Part shown: piece after piece, positions 2 to 10,095 of the stretch
Position numbering within the stretch: position 1 is the stretch's first letter
Layout of the letters: each line of letters begins with the position of its first letter
Source: Thermoleophilaceae bacterium
GTDB taxonomy: Bacteria > Actinomycetota > Thermoleophilia > Solirubrobacterales > Thermoleophilaceae
Assembly (NCBI GenBank): GCA_013695885.1
Contig: JACCZP010000038.1
Location: forward strand, 1-10,748
Direction: 5' to 3'
DNA: 10,748 nucleotides
Translations under genes and position numbers: made by a program
The notes under the pieces: model-generated
The model's database searches: none
Seen by the model: the letters and a program-made list of their open reading frames with translations, nothing else
Told to the model about the DNA's origin: nothing

Positions 2-3000
2 GCCGGTGTACGGGTGGAGCGCCGCTTCACGGAGCCGGGCGTGCACCCGTTCGAGGCGATCGAGTGGGAGGTCCGCGACGCGGTGATCGGCGACCCCGCG
101 GCGCCGGCCTTCGAGCAGCGCGAGGTCGAGTTCCCGGCCTCGTGGTCGCAGAACGCGACGAACATCGTCGCCCAGAAGTACTTCCGGGGCCAGCTCGGGG
201 CGGCGGAGCGCGAGCGGTCGGTCAAGCAGATGGTGTCGCGGGTGGCGGGCCGCATCACCGAGATGGGCCGCGACGGTGGCTACTTCGGCCGCCCCGATGA
301 TGCGGAGGCGTTCGAGGCCGAGCTCACCTACGTGCTCGTCAACCAGATGGCGGCGTTCAACTCACCGGTCTGGTTCAACATCGGATGGCGCCCGAAGGGC
401 GAGGAACAGTGCTCGGCGTGCTTCATCCTCTCGGTGGAGGACGACATGAGCTCGATCCTCGAGTGGAACACCAAGGAGGGCCACATCTTCCGCGGGGGCT
501 CGGGCTCGGGCATCAACCTCTCGAAGATTCGCGGCTCGATGGAGCCCCTGTCGAAGGGCGGCACCGCCAGCGGGCCCGTGTCGTTCATGCGCGGCACCGA
601 CGCGTGGGCGGGATCGATCAAGTCAGGCGGGGGCACACGCCGCGCGGCGAAGATGGTGGTGCTCGACGTCGATCACCCCGACATCGTCGACTTCATCTGG
701 TGCAAGGCCCAGGAGGAGGAGAAGGCGCTCGCTCTGCGCGATGCGGGCTTCGACATGTCGATCGACGGTGACGGCTTCACCTCGATCCAGTACCAGAACG
801 CCAATAACTCGGTACGGGTGACCGACGAGTTCATGGAGCGCGCCGAGCGCGGCGAGGCGTGGCAGACCACCGCGCGAACCACCGGCGAGCCGATCGGCGA
901 GCCGCTCGACGCGCGTGACCTGCTGCGCCAGATCGCCGACGCGGCGTGGCGGTGCGCCGACCCGGGCGTGCAGTACGACACGACCTTCAACGACTGGCAC
1001 ACCTGCCCTAACTCCGGGCGGATAAACGCCACTAATCCGTGCGCCGAATATGCACACGTAGACGACTCGGCCTGCAACCTCGCTTCGCTGAACCTCATGA
1101 AGTTCCGGCGGCCGGACGGCACGGTGAACGCGGAGTCCCTCGAGCACGTCGTCGACGTGATGCTGCTGGCCCAGGAGATCATCGTCGGCCCTTCGTCCTA
1201 CCCCACCGAGGAGATCGGCCGCAACGCGCGAGCGTTCCGCCAACTCGGACTCGGGTACGCGAATCTCGGCGCGCTGCTCATGTCCAACGGCCTGCCGTAC
1301 GACTCCGACGAGGGTCGGGGCACGGCCGCCGCCGTCACGGCGCTCATGACCGGGCGTGCGTACCGCAAGTCGGCCGAGGTCGCGGCCGCGATGGGCCCGT
1401 ACGAGCGCTACGCGGAGAACCGGGAGCCGCACAACTACGTGATGCGCAAGCACCGTGCGGCGGCGTACTCGATCGAGATGGGCTCCTGCGACGACAGCCT
1501 CCTCTCCGCGGCGCACCGCGCCTGGGACGACGCCGTGTCACTCGGTGACCAGCACGGCTACCGCAATGCGCAGGCCACGGTGCTCGCTCCGACGGGGTGC
1601 CTCACATCCGACTCCCTCGTGTCGACCAGTCGCGGTCTCGTCCGTCTGCGCAGCCTCGGAGACACGGAAGGGCCTCGGTGGCAGGACCTCGACGTGGAGG
1701 TGGCGACCGACGAAGGCCCTCGGCAGGCAACGAAGTTCTACGTCAACGGCGCCGAGCAGGTGGTCTCGATTCAGACTGGACGCGGATACCGCATCCAGGG
1801 CACTCCGACCCACCGGGTCAAGGTCGTCGACGAGCAGGGCGACTGGACCTGGCGACGCCTTGCCGAGGTGAAGCCGGGCGATCGTGTTCCGATGATGCTC
1901 GGGGGGCTTGTGGGTGAGCCTCGAGAGGTCGCGTTGCCGCCGCTCGGGGACCTGCACTGGAATTCTGGGCCCAAGACGCGGGTACCACGGCGGATGACTT
2001 CAGAGCTCGCTGAATTCGTCGGCTACTTCATGGGCGATGGCTCTCTGCACGCCAAGGGCTTGCGTCTCTGCATCACCGACGGAGACGATGACGTGGAGGA
2101 ACGCCTCGTCAACCTCGGTCGGGAGCTATTCGGCCTCGAGGCACATCGCCTGCCTCGTGAGGGCTACACGGAGCTCAGCTTCCACTCCGTGGCCCTCACG
2201 ATCTGGTGGGAGGCGTGTGGGTTCGCCAAGCACCCTCCGTTCGAAGGCCACAGCGGGAAGGGATGGTCACCTCACGTCCCCGACGCTGTGCTCCACACGA
2301 ACGACCGCTTCGCTTACGCGGCGTTCGTCCGGGGACTCTTCGAGGCAGACGGGAACGCAAACCACGGCTACGCGTACTGGAGCACTAGCAACGAGGAGTT
2401 CTCGCGAGACCTGCAGACGCTTTTGCTGGCGCTCGGCTTTGTCACGACGCGATTCCTGGACGCCGCCCGCGACAAGTTGGGCGGCCCCAGCCACCGACTT
2501 CGGCTGCTGAACGCCTCCGCGGCAGGGCGATTCATTGAAGAGGTCGGATTCATGTCGGAGCGCAAGAACGAAGCTCTCGCATCGGTTGACCATCCTCAGT
2601 CCGCTCGGTACGACCGGGTGCCCGTCACCCGTGCGCTGGTTGATGAGCTAGCGCCAGCCAACGATTCGCTGCGAAAGGCCCTCCTTCTGCAGCTCTCGAG
2701 GGTGGGAGGGGTGAGCCGGCAATCGGCCACAGCTTTGCTCGATCGCGGAGAGAGCGTCGACCTCGAGCATCTTCTCGGGTACTTCTACGACGACGTTGCG
2801 ACGTCCGAACTACTCGATGACCAGCCCACCTTCGACCTGTCAGTGCCCGACAACGTCACGTACGTGGCGAACGGCTTCGTAAGCCACAACACGATCTCGT
2901 TCCTCATGGACTGCGACACCACCGGTGTCGAGCCCGACTTCTCCCTGGTCAAGTTCAAGGAGCTCGTCGGCGGCGGGCGGATGACGATCGTCAACCGCAC

Positions 3001-4168
3001 CGTGCCCCTGGCGCTCGACACGCTCGGCTACGCCGGCGAGCAGATCGCCCAGATCGAGGCGCACGTGAACGAGCACGGGTCGATCGTCGAGGCGCCCGGC
3101 CTGAAGGCCGAGCATCTGCCGGTGTTCGATGTGGCGGTCGGTGAGCGCGCCATCTGCCCGATGGGCCACATCAAGATGATGGGTGCCACCCAGCCGTTCA
3201 TCAGCGGATCGATCTCGAAGACGGTCAACATGCCGGCCGATACGACGGTCGACGACATCGCCGACGCCTACCTCCAAGCCTGGAGGCTCGGCGTCAAGGC
3301 GCTCGCCATCTACCGCGACGGGTCGAAGACCGCGCAGGCGCTGCGCACCGAGGCCCACGACGAGAAGGGCGCCGAGGAAGAGGTCGCGGAGGTCGTGGCC
3401 GAGCCCCGGCCCTTCCGCCGGCGGATGCCGCGCGAGCGTCACTCGATCACGCACAAGTTCTCGATCGGCGGCCACGAGGGCTACATCACCGCCGGCATGT
3501 ACGAGGACGGCTCGGTGGGCGAGATCTTCCTCACCGACATCGGCAAGGAGGGCTCGACGCTGCGGGGGATGATGAACGCCTTCGCCACCGCGATCTCGAT
3601 CTCGCTCCAGTATGGGGTGCCGCTCGAGACCCTGGTGCGGAAGTTCTGCTACATGCGCTTCGAGCCTGAGGGGATGACCCAGAACACGGAGATCCCCTTC
3701 GCGAAGTCGATGCCCGACTACATCATGCGGTGGCTGGCCTCGCGCTTCCTCGGCGTCGACGTGCAGGAGGAGCTCGGGATCCTCACCCCGGAGGTTCGAG
3801 CCCGCAAGGCCTCGCAGGAGGCGCTCATGCGGGGGGACACCGCCGGGCCCGTGGCCGACGGCGGCAACGGGAGCGCGGGCAACGGTGGTGCGTCGAACGG
3901 GGGCACGAAGGCGCACGCCTCCGGACCCGCTACCTCCGGCGACACGCTCCCTTCTCCCCCGGCACCGGGTAGCCGGCCGGCGTCCGATTCGCAGCCCGCC
4001 ACCACGAAGGCCGCGGCTGAGGCGTTCACCGACACGCCGCCGGTCATGCCGGCGCGCCTCCACGGTCTCGACCTCGGCCCCGCGTGCGCGGCCTGCGGCG
4101 GGATGATGCAGCGGACGGGCTCGTGCTACACGTGCTCGAGCTGCGGCAACAACACGGGCTGCGGGTAG
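2..4168 (+). CDS. nrdJ: Vitamin B12-dependent (class II) ribonucleotide reductase, intein-containing, 5' end outside window
   Basis: Reduces ribonucleotides to deoxyribonucleotides in the cytoplasm using adenosylcobalamin as radical source. Residue numbers count the GTG at 14 as 1. That GTG is probably an internal Val: the frame is open to the window edge and the upstream residues (AGVR) still match the N-terminal region of actinobacterial NrdJ, so the true start lies further upstream. Visible signatures are the redox Cys136 in SACFILSV, the finger-loop NPCAE with the radical Cys343, its partner Cys354 in SACNLASLNL, and the substrate loop APTG/TIS, which is split by an intein (residues 529-959). 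A TSCPD domain spans about 1143-1225. A Gly/Ala/Ser/Pro-rich linker (about 1270-1345) leads to a Cys-rich tail (Cys1358, 1361, 1371, 1374, 1377, 1383) that probably re-reduces the active site. Without the intein about 953 residues remain, normal for the family. The stop is TAG at 4166. The family call is very secure. Confidence 0.96.
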   Translation, partial: AGVRVERRFTEPGVHPFEAIEWEVRDAVIGDPAAPAFEQREVEFPASWSQNATNIVAQKYFRGQLGAAERERSVKQMVSRVAGRITEMGRDGGYFGRPDDAEAFEAELTYVLVNQMAAFNSPVWFNIGWRPKGEEQCSACFILSVEDDMSSILEWNTKEGHIFRGGSGSGINLSKIRGSMEPLSKGGTASGPVSFMRGTDAWAGSIKSGGGTRRAAKMVVLDVDHPDIVDFIWCKAQEEEKALALRDAGFDMSIDGDGFTSIQYQNANNSVRVTDEFMERAERGEAWQTTARTTGEPIGEPLDARDLLRQIADAAWRCADPGVQYDTTFNDWHTCPNSGRINATNPCAEYAHVDDSACNLASLNLMKFRRPDGTVNAESLEHVVDVMLLAQEIIVGPSSYPTEEIGRNARAFRQLGLGYANLGALLMSNGLPYDSDEGRGTAAAVTALMTGRAYRKSAEVAAAMGPYERYAENREPHNYVMRKHRAAAYSIEMGSCDDSLLSAAHRAWDDAVSLGDQHGYRNAQATVLAPTGCLTSDSLVSTSRGLVRLRSLGDTEGPRWQDLDVEVATDEGPRQATKFYVNGAEQVVSIQTGRGYRIQGTPTHRVKVVDEQGDWTWRRLAEVKPGDRVPMMLGGLVGEPREVALPPLGDLHWNSGPKTRVPRRMTSELAEFVGYFMGDGSLHAKGLRLCITDGDDDVEERLVNLGRELFGLEAHRLPREGYTELSFHSVALTIWWEACGFAKHPPFEGHSGKGWSPHVPDAVLHTNDRFAYAAFVRGLFEADGNANHGYAYWSTSNEEFSRDLQTLLLALGFVTTRFLDAARDKLGGPSHRLRLLNASAAGRFIEEVGFMSERKNEALASVDHPQSARYDRVPVTRALVDELAPANDSLRKALLLQLSRVGGVSRQSATALLDRGESVDLEHLLGYFYDDVATSELLDDQPTFDLSVPDNVTYVANGFVSHNTISFLMDCDTTGVEPDFSLVKFKELVGGGRMTIVNRTVPLALDTLGYAGEQIAQIEAHVNEHGSIVEAPGLKAEHLPVFDVAVGERAICPMGHIKMMGATQPFISGSISKTVNMPADTTVDDIADAYLQAWRLGVKALAIYRDGSKTAQALRTEAHDEKGAEEEVAEVVAEPRPFRRRMPRERHSITHKFSIGGHEGYITAGMYEDGSVGEIFLTDIGKEGSTLRGMMNAFATAISISLQYGVPLETLVRKFCYMRFEPEGMTQNTEIPFAKSMPDYIMRWLASRFLGVDVQEELGILTPEVRARKASQEALMRGDTAGPVADGGNGSAGNGGASNGGTKAHASGPATSGDTLPSPPAPGSRPASDSQPATTKAAAEAFTDTPPVMPARLHGLDLGPACAACGGMMQRTGSCYTCSSCGNNTGCG
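1598..2890 (+). mobile_element. Intein with LAGLIDADG homing endonuclease inside nrdJ
   Basis: This 431-residue in-frame insertion (Cys529-Asn959) interrupts the NrdJ sequence APTG/TISFLM, which is continuous in intein-free relatives. Splicing blocks are all present: block A starts at Cys529 (CLTSDSLV), block B has Thr597-x-x-His600 in GTPTHRV, block F lies in the segment ending TYVANG, and block G is FVSHN with the His958-Asn959 pair. The first C-extein residue is Thr960. Two LAGLIDADG motifs are visible: EFVGYFMGDGSL with Asp675 and FVRGLFEADGNA with Asp779. Both acidic residues are kept, so the endonuclease may be active. The reading frame is intact and all splicing residues are canonical, so self-splicing is expected. 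Codon use is much less G/C-ending than in the flanking extein, which fits recent acquisition. Confidence 0.95.
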
Positions 4169-7081: not shown

Positions 7082-7106
7082 CGGAGGCGGATCGTGTCCG
7101 CTTCCG
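7082..7106 (+). promoter_or_regulatory. Strong hairpin in the leader of the sigma-amidotransferase gene
   Basis: CGGAGGCGGA (7082-7091) and TCCGCTTCCG (7097-7106) form a 10-bp RNA stem with one G-U pair and a five-base loop (TCGTG). The hairpin ends 26 bases before the ATG at 7133. It may be a leader element controlling the operon, a protein-binding operator, or a T-less terminator of the gene upstream. Confidence 0.45.
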
Positions 7107-7132
7107 TCCGCCCCGTTCGTCTCCAGTAGAAG

Positions 7133-8296
7133 ATGGGCACGATCTCCTTCCTCGAACGACAGGCGGAGCCGCTCACCCGGCGCCTCGAGCGCATGGTCGG
7201 ATCACGCGAGACGGCCGAGGACCTGCGCCAGGAGGCACTGCTGCGGGCGTGGCAGCACGGGCCCCGCGACGCCTCCGACGAGCGTCAGGCGGCCTGGCTG
7301 TGGCGCACCGCGTCGAACCTCGCGGTCGACGAGCTGCGCCGCCGCGAGCGCTGGGCGTGGAGCGAGCTCGAAACCGATCAGCAACAGGCGGCCACGGACG
7401 ACCCCGCCGAGCGTCTCGCGGTCCGCCACTCGCTGGAGCAGCTGAGCGCGCACGAGCGGTTCGTACTGCGGCTGCGCTTCGAGGCGGGCCTCTCGCACGC
7501 CGAGATCGGCAGCCTCCTCGCCATCTCCGAGGAGGCGGCCCGCAAGCGGGTGACACGGGCGCGCGCGGCGTTCTCCGGCGCCTGGCGCAGGACAAGGCCC
7601 GACCGCGGCCCGCTCATCCTCCTCGCGGAGCGCGGCGAGCACGAGGGGAGCGACGAGCCCTACGTCGGCTGGCTCGAGAGCGCCGGGGCCCGCGTACGGC
7701 GGCTCCGGTCCGAGCTCGTCGAGCGCGACCTGGCCACCGCGGACGCGCTGGTCCTGGCCGGGAGCGTGATCGACCTGCACCCTGCGCTATACCGGGAGCG
7801 ACCTCGGGCCGCCCTCAACCGACCCGATCTGCGGCGCGACCTGGCCGACCTGCGCGCGCTGCGCGCCGCCCTCCGCGCGGGGGTCCCAGTTCTCGGCGTA
7901 TGCCGCGGTCACCAGCTCCTGAACATCGCGTTCGGCGGCACCCTTCACCAGGACCTGGCCGTGGACGGGATCACCCCCCGCTCGCATCGGGCGGGCTCTC
8001 ACCGCCTCGACACATCTCCGGGTTCCTTCACCCGCCGCGTGCTCGGCAAGCGCCCGACCGTGTCCAGCGAGCACCACCAGGCAATCGCCCGTCTCGGGCG
8101 CGGCATCGTCCCGCTGGCCTCCTCTCCCGACGGGGTGGTCGAGGGCGCCGAGCTGAGGGGTCGTGCACTCGCGGTGGGCCTCCAGTGGCACCCGGAGTCG
8201 CCGGAGTCCGGGGTGGCCGGGCGGCGGATGGCCGACGCGCTGGTCGAAGCGGCGGCCCGGAGCGCGGAGGCGGACCGGAGGGGAGAGGCGGCGTGA
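7133..8296 (+). CDS. ECF-type sigma factor fused to a PuuD-like class I glutamine amidotransferase / gamma-glutamyl hydrolase domain
   Basis: This 387-residue fusion is in one uninterrupted frame. Residues 10-75 match sigma region 2 (AEDLRQEALLRAW; LWRTASNLAVDELRRRER) and 95-150 match region 4 with its helix-turn-helix (LSAHERFVLRLRF; SHAEIGSLLAISEEAARKRV). After a linker of only about eight residues, 159-375 form a peptidase C26/PuuD-like domain: the oxyanion-type loop is AGSVIDLHP, the nucleophile Cys257 is in GVCRGHQLLNIAFGGTLHQDL, SSEHHQAI matches the family's HHQA motif, and His353 and Glu355 sit in LQWHPE. All catalytic residues are present. The family hydrolyses gamma-glutamyl amides such as gamma-Glu-GABA. 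The fusion suggests sigma activity controlled by such a ligand (inference). The start is ATG at 7133 with a weak ribosome site (AGTAGAAG). The gene overlaps the next by four bases. No anti-sigma gene is adjacent. Confidence 0.93.
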   Translation: MGTISFLERQAEPLTRRLERMVGSRETAEDLRQEALLRAWQHGPRDASDERQAAWLWRTASNLAVDELRRRERWAWSELETDQQQAATDDPAERLAVRHSLEQLSAHERFVLRLRFEAGLSHAEIGSLLAISEEAARKRVTRARAAFSGAWRRTRPDRGPLILLAERGEHEGSDEPYVGWLESAGARVRRLRSELVERDLATADALVLAGSVIDLHPALYRERPRAALNRPDLRRDLADLRALRAALRAGVPVLGVCRGHQLLNIAFGGTLHQDLAVDGITPRSHRAGSHRLDTSPGSFTRRVLGKRPTVSSEHHQAIARLGRGIVPLASSPDGVVEGAELRGRALAVGLQWHPESPESGVAGRRMADALVEAAARSAEADRRGEAA

Positions 8297-8724
8297 GCGC
8301 CGCGACCGAACGCGCCCGTGGGCCGGTCACCCTCCGCCTCGCTCGGGAGGAGGATCGCGAGGCACTCCGCCGCCTCGCGGAGCTCGACTCGTCGACCGTC
8401 CCGCCGGCGCCGACAATGGTGGCCGACCTCGACGGCGAACTGCTCGCGGCCGTCTCGATCGCCGACGGCGCGACGGTGGCCGACCCCTTCGCGCCGACCG
8501 CCGACCTGGTCGATCTCCTGCGGCTGCGCGTGGGTCAGCTGCAGGCGACGGTCGGCCTCTCCGCGCCGTCGGTCGGCAGCGGCTGGGGCTCCCTCGTCGG
8601 CCGAGCGGCGAGGGTCGTCGGTCTGCTCGGTGAGGGCGAGGAGCGGCGGGCGGCCGCCTACGGGATGAGCGGAAGCCAGGCCCTTGTCGGGCAGAGGCTC
8701 GCGCACGGCCGTCGGCGCGGGTGA
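8293..8724 (+). CDS. Half-GNAT-like conserved actinobacterial protein
   Basis: The 143-residue protein begins at GTG (8293), overlapping the sigma-amidotransferase stop as GTGA, with a purine-rich GGAGGGGAGAGG just upstream. Residues 12-57 (VTLRLAREEDREALRRLAEL, then MVADLDGELLAAVSIADG) match the first strand, helix and strands of GNAT acetyltransferases. The acetyl-CoA-binding loop of that family (Q/R-x-x-G-x-G/A) is not visible. The chain continues VADPFAPTADLVDLLRLRVGQL and ends in a Gly/Arg/Ala-rich tail. Proteins of this shape are frequent in Actinobacteria and mostly annotated as hypothetical. Without the CoA site, acetyl transfer is doubtful; a ligand-binding or partner role is as likely. 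The tight overlap on both sides makes it part of the same transcript as the sigma fusion. Confidence 0.8.
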   Translation: MSAATERARGPVTLRLAREEDREALRRLAELDSSTVPPAPTMVADLDGELLAAVSIADGATVADPFAPTADLVDLLRLRVGQLQATVGLSAPSVGSGWGSLVGRAARVVGLLGEGEERRAAAYGMSGSQALVGQRLAHGRRRG

Positions 8725-9333: not shown

Positions 9334-10095
9334 TCAGCGGCCGCCGTGCGCGCGGCAGTGGTCGGCGAAGGCCTCGAAGCCCCGGGTGGAGCGCGCGACG
9401 AGATCGCGCTCCGCCCGCAGCGCGCCCTCGCGAAGGAGACCGGCGTGGCCGGGACCGAGCGCCTGCTCGGCCTCGGCCGCCATGCTCGGCTCGGCGAGCC
9501 AGCGCTCGACCAGGCGGGCGTCGCCCTCCGCGTGGAAGAGGAGCCCCCACGCCGAGCGTCCGGCCCGGAAGGCCTGTACCGCGGTGGCCGCGGAGCGGGC
9601 GAGCGGCGTGGCGGTCGCGGGGAGGTCGAACACCTCGCCGTGCCAGTGGAGGACCTCCGTCGCGGGTGCCAGAGGGCCGACCACCGGGTCGTCGGGATCG
9701 AGCACGTCGACGGAACCCCATCCGATCTCCGGCGCCGGGGCCGGCCGGACGTCCGCGCCGAGCGCGCGCGCCAGCAGCTGCGCGCCGAGGCATACGCCGA
9801 GCACCGGAACCTCCCGGTCGAGCGCCTCGGCCATCCAGCCGATCTCGGTCGCCAGAGTAGGGAACCGGTCGGTGTCGTGGACGCTCATCGGGCCGCCCAT
9901 GAACACCGCGCCGGACACCTCGCCGGGCGGGGGCAGCGCCGCCGCGCGCGCCGTCTCGCTCACAGGCGCGGAGGAGCCGACGTCCGGCATCGCCACCCGT
10001 AGGAGCGGAAGGGCGGCGAGCGCGTCATCGATTCGGTGCGGCCCCTCCCACGCGACGTGCTCCACGACGAGGATCGGGGGTGGGCCGGGGCTCAT
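9334..10095 (-). CDS. Class I glutamine amidotransferase (GMP synthase GATase-like), stand-alone
   Basis: This 253-residue cytoplasmic protein has the class I amidotransferase fold signature. AVFMGGPMSVHD (residues 63-74) forms the oxyanion loop, PVLGVCLGAQLLARALGA (97-114) holds the nucleophile Cys102, and LLFHAEGD (185-192) holds His188 and Glu190. The triad is complete. A conserved LHWHGEVFDLP (149-159) is typical of the GuaA-like stand-alone group, in which some members hydrolyse glutamine or gamma-glutamyl compounds without a synthetase partner. The exact substrate cannot be read from sequence. The start is ATG at 10095, without a strong ribosome site. The gene converges on the sigma-amidotransferase operon, so two amidotransferase domains of different subfamilies lie within 3 kb. 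It is divergent from the TauE/SafE gene. Confidence 0.92.
   Translation of the reverse strand: MSPGPPPILVVEHVAWEGPHRIDDALAALPLLRVAMPDVGSSAPVSETARAAALPPPGEVSGAVFMGGPMSVHDTDRFPTLATEIGWMAEALDREVPVLGVCLGAQLLARALGADVRPAPAPEIGWGSVDVLDPDDPVVGPLAPATEVLHWHGEVFDLPATATPLARSAATAVQAFRAGRSAWGLLFHAEGDARLVERWLAEPSMAAEAEQALGPGHAGLLREGALRAERDLVARSTRGFEAFADHCRAHGGR

Follow-up and report, generated by a model that had tools for sequence, protein, structure and literature searches.

A sigma factor fused to a Peptidase C26 domain in the Solirubrobacterales, a candidate self-regulating one-protein switch

The stretch of DNA analysed here, referred to throughout as the window, is 10,748 nucleotides long and spans one whole contig (JACCZP010000038.1) of a draft Thermoleophilaceae genome (assembly GCA_013695885.1; handle G000). 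It encodes a protein in which an extracytoplasmic function (ECF) sigma factor is joined to a Peptidase C26, or class-I glutamine amidotransferase-like, domain. A first-pass annotation made from the letters of the window had described one continuous frame comprising sigma regions 2 and 4 and a C26 domain, and this is confirmed by the intact open reading frame and by three Pfam matches above their cut-offs (Table 1), that to Peptidase_C26 covering residues 193-355 (E 3.2e-42, 145 bits against a cut-off of 20.5). Since regions 2 and 4 were found by Pfam with no match to region 3, the protein belongs to the ECF (group 4) factors, and the TIGR02937 model also matches it (63.3 bits, cut-off 42.9). 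No anti-sigma domain was matched in Pfam scans of six window proteins, the fusion included, or of the adjoining partner gene, which supports the original comparison with ECF factors of the ECF41 and ECF42 style that carry a C-terminal sensor-like extension and have no recognised anti-sigma factor. The linker is longer than the eight or so residues first proposed: from the end of region 4 (at about residue 147) to the first C26 strand (residue 161 in the structure model) it measures nearer 13. At least two stand-alone C26 genes are present in G000, and the fused domain is therefore not the sole C26 of this genome.

Table 1. Features of the sigma-C26 locus, with positions in the window
Feature	Position	Strand	Details
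Predicted sigma-C26 promoter	7095..7122	+	-35 element TGTCCGCTT (7095-7103), -10 element CGTCT (7118-7122)
Sigma-C26 fusion gene	7133..8296	+	387 aa, stop included; open frame without internal stop
Sigma-70 region 2, residues 13-73	7169..7351	+	Pfam Sigma70_r2 PF04542, E 5e-11, above Pfam cut-off
Sigma-70 region 4, residues 95-146	7415..7570	+	Pfam Sigma70_r4_2 PF08281, E 3.5e-10, above Pfam cut-off
Interdomain linker, residues 147-160	7571..7612	+	Pfam limits and model secondary structure; low model confidence at 131-156
Peptidase C26 / class-I glutamine amidotransferase-like domain, residues 161-379	7613..8269	+	Pfam, model and fold match
Catalytic Cys257 codon	7901..7903	+	Cys in 26/28 aligned rows (one not covered, one off frame)
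His353-Pro354-Glu355 codons of the triad	8189..8197 (8189-8191 His, 8195-8197 Glu)	+	His and Glu both kept in 22/24 readable rows
Partner gene, 143 aa	8293..8724	+	GTGA overlap with fusion stop; half GNAT (N-acetyltransferase) fold likeness by eye only

The search for this architecture across genomes that the first-pass annotation had proposed was carried out by scanning 232 genomes of the Solirubrobacterales with a profile built from seven complete fusions, at most eight candidates being scored per genome. The sigma-C26 fusion recurs in 28 of the 232 genomes, all scoring above 260 bits, and the next score is 161 bits with coverage of C26 only. It is complete in a single frame in 21 of the 28, the window's own counted, several of these being single-contig genomes; contig ends cut the gene in three others (G046, G014 and G126), the frame is broken in three drafts (G130, G124 and G120), and G091 has the C26 half alone. 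The fusion is thus not an assembly accident. Two earlier cautions, that relatives might carry two separate genes here and that a stop or frameshift might have been missed, lose their force in the face of these 21 single-frame genes, and no sigma-only orthologue occurs among the order matches listed. The closest C26 domain without a visible sigma half (G091, L047, 1-773) lies at a contig start and is preceded by a stretch that by eye resembles tetratricopeptide repeats (TPR); it is possibly a chimera or another fusion.

Beyond the order, class and phylum samples were searched with four candidates scored per genome; the count of genomes from outside the order is not given for these samples. The class sample (399 genomes) yielded 23 matches at E 1e-50, all from the same order, and the phylum sample (396 genomes) seven matches at E 1e-46, comprising three same-order fusions, the window's own included, and four C26-only proteins. 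Within the two samples the fusion is seen in this order only. Among viral contigs, 22 loci matched the C26 part or the sigma part and none matched both, a further search giving one sigma locus; 177 plasmid records matched, none with a single place covering more than 80% of the query; and the genome-contig collection gave one sigma-part locus.

In a quick tree computed from 19 fused and 11 stand-alone C26 domains, all the fused ones group in a single clade; no support value was printed for it, and the stand-alone set consists of the 11 of 26 loci where the motif filter found a usable frame. Judged by this topology, the fusion probably arose once. Mean pairwise identity among 18 fusions is 53% in the sigma part and 51% in C26, compared with 27% in the linker between regions 2 and 4, and the ratio of nonsynonymous to synonymous substitution rates (dN/dS) is at most 0.61 in both halves across seven close pairs.

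A shared promoter motif lies upstream of the fusion gene. The motif GTCCGS-N16-CGTC was found, at a spacing of exactly 16 nt, in all 26 loci that include the gene start, and each of these ECF genes is predicted to possess its own promoter with a CGT-type -10 element. The strict form is present in 23 of the 26; G016 and G130 depart from it with CGTT and G167 with GTCACA...CGTT, and the relaxed form that accommodates them was set after these three had been seen. A T precedes GTCCGS in 18 of the 26 loci. In the window, CGTC ends 11 nt upstream of the ATG, and among 21 loci the gap between the end of the -10 element and the assumed start codon is 8-13 nt in 19, a distance so short that the transcripts would have little or no leader. 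Of 145-nt stretches drawn at random from the promoter-bearing loci, some of which may include the promoters themselves, 1.1% contain the relaxed form and 0.7% the strict form. Average information content is 1.67 bits per position in the motif and 0.29 in the flank upstream of it, indicating that conservation of the promoter exceeds mere relatedness. Although the strict form has a mean of 0.00 in 200 shuffles of the window, a match to the looser form carries no significance when the window is taken alone (0.51 expected), and the weight therefore lies in the comparison across genomes.

Two further arrangements were seen around this promoter. At L040 (~14794-15401) and L077 (~9482-9950) it is duplicated, in G068 and G186, and in G068 an apparent remnant of the sigma start lies upstream of the fusion. 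Several small-protein genes, at L107, L112, L187 (genus of G092), L214, L215 (G122, G127) and L179 (by eye), have tandem GTAAGG repeats upstream, in two to three copies about 25-35 nt apart and with CGCCCGATGTG after them. This putative regulatory element gave five matches in 12 genomes against none in the reversed control, and in the genus of G092 the repeats run into the sigma-C26 promoter.

The pattern TGTCCGSTY-N14-CGTCT was searched in the 232 order genomes, where it has 31 matches in 27 genomes, with 11 in the reversed control. Thirteen matches fall at fusion promoters (at the remaining fusion promoters one of the fixed bases is changed, in many cases the leading T), two at the duplicated promoter in G068 and G186, two before an unlinked small gene in G060 and G092, one near a glutamate-synthase-like gene in G034, one elsewhere in G122, and the last 12 in genomes that lack the fusion. 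Eleven of these 12 were read (one for 13 nt only; G222 was unread), and none has a frame of at least 50 aa starting within 48 nt; beyond the fusion family the pattern therefore seems to occur by chance. One site in G000 matches the strict pattern. The G034 match (L104, G034:C1:4316853-4316880) is a strict promoter about 190 nt upstream of the glutamate-synthase-like gene, which was recognised by eye; it is a single case, located in the genome whose C26 domain is without His and Glu.

The unlinked small gene (66-71 aa) has four full-length copies in the 12 genomes searched, all in the genus of G092, and all four are preceded by the promoter at exact spacing. In G092 the small gene encodes 68 aa and lies at 3032421-3032624 on the minus strand, the fusion gene being at C1 6283730-6284890 on the plus strand. 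The genes of G060 and G092 were found via the promoter, leaving those of G140 and G141 as independent cases; a fifth, weak match in G137 was unreadable, and the G092 copy has no Pfam or NCBIfam match. Six extra promoter matches were also examined. Two are single-genome leads: a match in G140 lies 10 nt before the start of a gene that by eye is alpha/beta-hydrolase-like, and another, in G122, precedes a GTG start by 18 nt. The remaining four showed no convincing gene start.

The second gene associated with the fusion is its partner, which in the window has no Pfam or NCBIfam match. Members of this family adjoin the fusion in 11 of the 28 loci, the window included: nine lie downstream on the same strand, five of them with an ATGA or GTGA overlap, and two lie on the upstream side, where the promoter is duplicated. 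The partner gene of G122 has its own copy of the promoter. The family as a whole (window 8293-8724, L163-L179) has 0-5 matches per genome in the 12 genomes searched, and several other copies adjoin GntR-like or LysR-like regulators (by eye), suggesting that it may be a regulated output more generally in the order.

The remaining neighbours were less informative. Those of the fusion in the genus of G092 resemble moaC and moaB/mogA by eye, and gene neighbourhood was rejected as a pathway clue because outside this genus no cluster is common to more than five genomes. Two clusters reach five genomes: the small partner family, and a family present in multiple copies that by eye resembles major facilitator superfamily transporters. 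No COE enzyme gene was recognised by eye among the neighbours listed (up to 150 aa each). Elsewhere in the window, positions 14-4168 hold a class II ribonucleotide reductase gene with an in-frame intein bearing a LAGLIDADG domain, and a second class-I glutamine amidotransferase-like gene lies near the fusion on the opposite strand (9334-10095, minus); the latter is GMP-synthase/PRK07053-like, yet falls under the curated cut-offs of both models.

Of the known systems, ECF41 factors are the nearest working model. In these proteins a domain fused at the C-terminus takes the place of an anti-sigma factor, and there is essentially a single target, with the promoter TGTCACA-n16-CGTC (PMC3426412). 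The fusion resembles these proteins, whose extension is SnoaL-like and which include SigJ of M. tuberculosis and Ecf41Bli, in its ECF core with a fused C-terminal domain, in the lack of a recognised anti-sigma factor, in a predicted main target that is itself or adjacent, and in the TGTCnnn-N16-CGTC geometry (PMC3426412). It differs from them in that its C-terminal domain is C26 with no SnoaL match, that the SigJ model scores 47.5 bits against a cut-off of 271, that its -35 element reads GTCCGS at 25 of the 26 loci, G167 alone having GTCACA (with the same spacing), and that its partner, so far as the neighbours listed show, is a small unnamed protein rather than a COE enzyme. In a review of non-canonical ECF factors (PMC8999054), the TPR-bearing ECF42 factors likewise have a large C-terminal extension and no anti-sigma factor, whereas the fusion has no TPR match and no YCII match was found among the window proteins scanned; CorE-type ECF238 factors also place the sensor in a C-terminal extension, but CorE senses metals via a cysteine-rich domain. 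The C26 half shares its fold, Cys/His/Glu triad and CxGxQ and HHQ motifs with PuuD, SpuA and Lin1909. Unlike the fusion, these are stand-alone proteins, and the NCBIfam PuuD equivalog NF008471 scores 60.1 on the fusion against a cut-off of 266.

The same review puts the number of ECF groups bearing extensions at no fewer than 26, the domains named being SnoaL-like, TPR, WD40-like, cysteine-rich and anti-sigma-like; in the passages and tables covered, words in amidotransferase- or hydrolase- are absent, and peptidase occurs once, for another mechanism (PMC8999054). According to the first-pass annotation the sigma/C26 pairing is not known as a described sigma-factor class, and no description was found among the papers listed by literature searches or in those passages and tables, a coverage that excludes the full 2021 ECF re-classification. 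The fusion is a new domain type within the ECF factors with regulatory extensions, and the class is not wholly new.

Taken together, we consider it likely that the fusion is a self-regulating one-protein ECF switch of the Solirubrobacterales, in which the C26 domain replaces the anti-sigma factor as ligand sensor. The N-terminal ECF half would recognise GTCCGS-N16-CGTC and drive its own gene as a near-leaderless transcript, and would also drive the downstream partner gene in many members and the unlinked small gene in the genus of G092. Standing in for an anti-sigma factor, the fused C26 domain would bind a gamma-glutamyl-type amide, which most members could probably also cleave. Once occupied or acylated, the Cys pocket would alter the way C26 packs on regions 2 and 4, and the sigma factor would thereby be either released or locked. 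The fusion itself, its conservation, the single C26 clade, the common promoter and the partner gene are shown by the data; we infer that the sigma factor itself reads the promoter and that C26 is its sensor, as well as the class of ligand and the direction of the switch, given here as either release or locking. Conservation, the promoter and the small regulon make this regulatory reading much stronger.

The active site bears most directly on what the C26 domain does. In the window, Cys257, His353 and Glu355 are as the first-pass annotation had given them, and the CxGxQ and HHQ motifs are present. The description 'catalytically complete' holds for the window and for 22 of the 24 readable rows, the window being one of the 24; it does not hold for two relatives in which Cys is kept and His/Glu are replaced, by Lys/Gln in G034 and by Gln/Gln in G124. 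G034 is a single-contig genome with the fusion frame and promoter intact, while G124 is a draft in which the sigma and C26 halves lie in different frames, so the argument from triad loss rests on G034. Retention of Cys where His and Glu are lost suggests that binding, perhaps via Cys, is better conserved than turnover, and makes an amidase reaction, as had been put forward, unlikely as a universal switch. Most active-site positions are common to fused and stand-alone C26 domains, and eight are fusion-specific by thresholds set here (19 fused against 11 stand-alone), Trp180, Arg189, Asp239 and Arg301 among them. Position 239 is Asp in 18 of 19 fusions and Glu in all 11 stand-alone domains, and position 211 is Ser, Ala or Asp in all 19 fusions and Gly in the stand-alone domains, changes which suggest that the substrate may differ from that of PuuD.

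These observations divide over the first alternative, in which C26 would be active as a gamma-glutamyl hydrolase: its substrate would turn the sigma factor on and hydrolysis would turn it off, so that turnover resets or times the factor. The triad and its surroundings, conserved in most members and common to stand-alone C26, and the fold match to PuuD and SpuA are what such an enzyme would show; the replaced His/Glu of G034, in an intact frame behind an intact promoter, those of G124 in its broken draft frame, and the changes at positions 239 and 211, which are fixed in the 11 stand-alone domains, make it unlikely. An outside chance attaches to a covalent switch, in which the pocket Cys would take a gamma-glutamyl group and the thioester state would turn the sigma factor on or off. 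In members with His and Glu this state would decay and act as a timer, and in those without them (G034, perhaps G124) it would be a latch; a structure titled 'SpuA mutant - H221N with glutamyl-thioester' (7d50) suggests that a His-less C26 protein can hold such an adduct.

A structure model adds to the evidence on the fold. An AlphaFold2 model, for which 17 distant relatives (chiefly C26 proteins of viruses) were used, has a mean predicted local distance difference test score (pLDDT) of 73.8 and a predicted template modelling score (pTM) of 0.55, with pLDDT below 50 at residues 131-156; a single-sequence model was poor (pLDDT 48). Its C26 half matches Lin1909, SpuA and PuuD with template modelling scores, normalised by target, of 0.73-0.85. 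The predicted structure supports the C26 fold but gives no interface with the sigma half. Much the same low odds as for the covalent switch apply to a scaffold, in which C26 would bind a partner protein or stabilise the sigma factor with no small-molecule sensing, as has been proposed for the TPR domain of ECF42. Such a role would suit the triad loss in G034 and the small partner protein encoded beside the fusion at 11 of 28 loci, but not the conserved Cys (26 of 28 rows) and active-site surround, nor the genus of G092, which keeps the C26 domain without a linked partner gene. Finally, an accidental or decaying fusion, or an assembly error, might account for the patchy occurrence and the broken frames of three drafts, but is hardly credible: 21 frames are complete, several of them in genomes of a single contig, dN/dS stays below 1 for the sigma and the C26 half alike, and the promoter is present in 26 of 26 loci.

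Several points nevertheless weigh against the ligand-sensing switch that we favour. The assignment of the promoter to the fusion protein rests on co-occurrence, and a looser promoter pattern matches 99 places in 20 fusion genomes and its reversed control 36, so that many of its matches are chance. No partner gene is seen at 17 of the 28 loci, in some owing to a contig end, and the distribution of the fusion over the order is patchy (28 of 232 genomes). The dN/dS of C26 is highest, up to 0.6, in three pairs with G092, and the domain interface of the model is unreliable, given its pTM and the low pLDDT at the junction. Nothing here points to a gamma-glutamyl metabolite or to glutamine, the ligands first suggested, and C26 could be a scaffold.

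The fusion adds an enzyme-type small-molecule pocket to the domains known to be fused to ECF factors, and it is conserved in several genera of one order. Since a predicted promoter and a tiny regulon accompany it, this family offers a way to test how ECF factors are gated by a C-terminal extension. If the covalent reading were true, a covalent intermediate of an enzyme would here control a sigma factor. More generally, the fusion may read a metabolite directly, and could serve as a metabolite-responsive one-gene switch.
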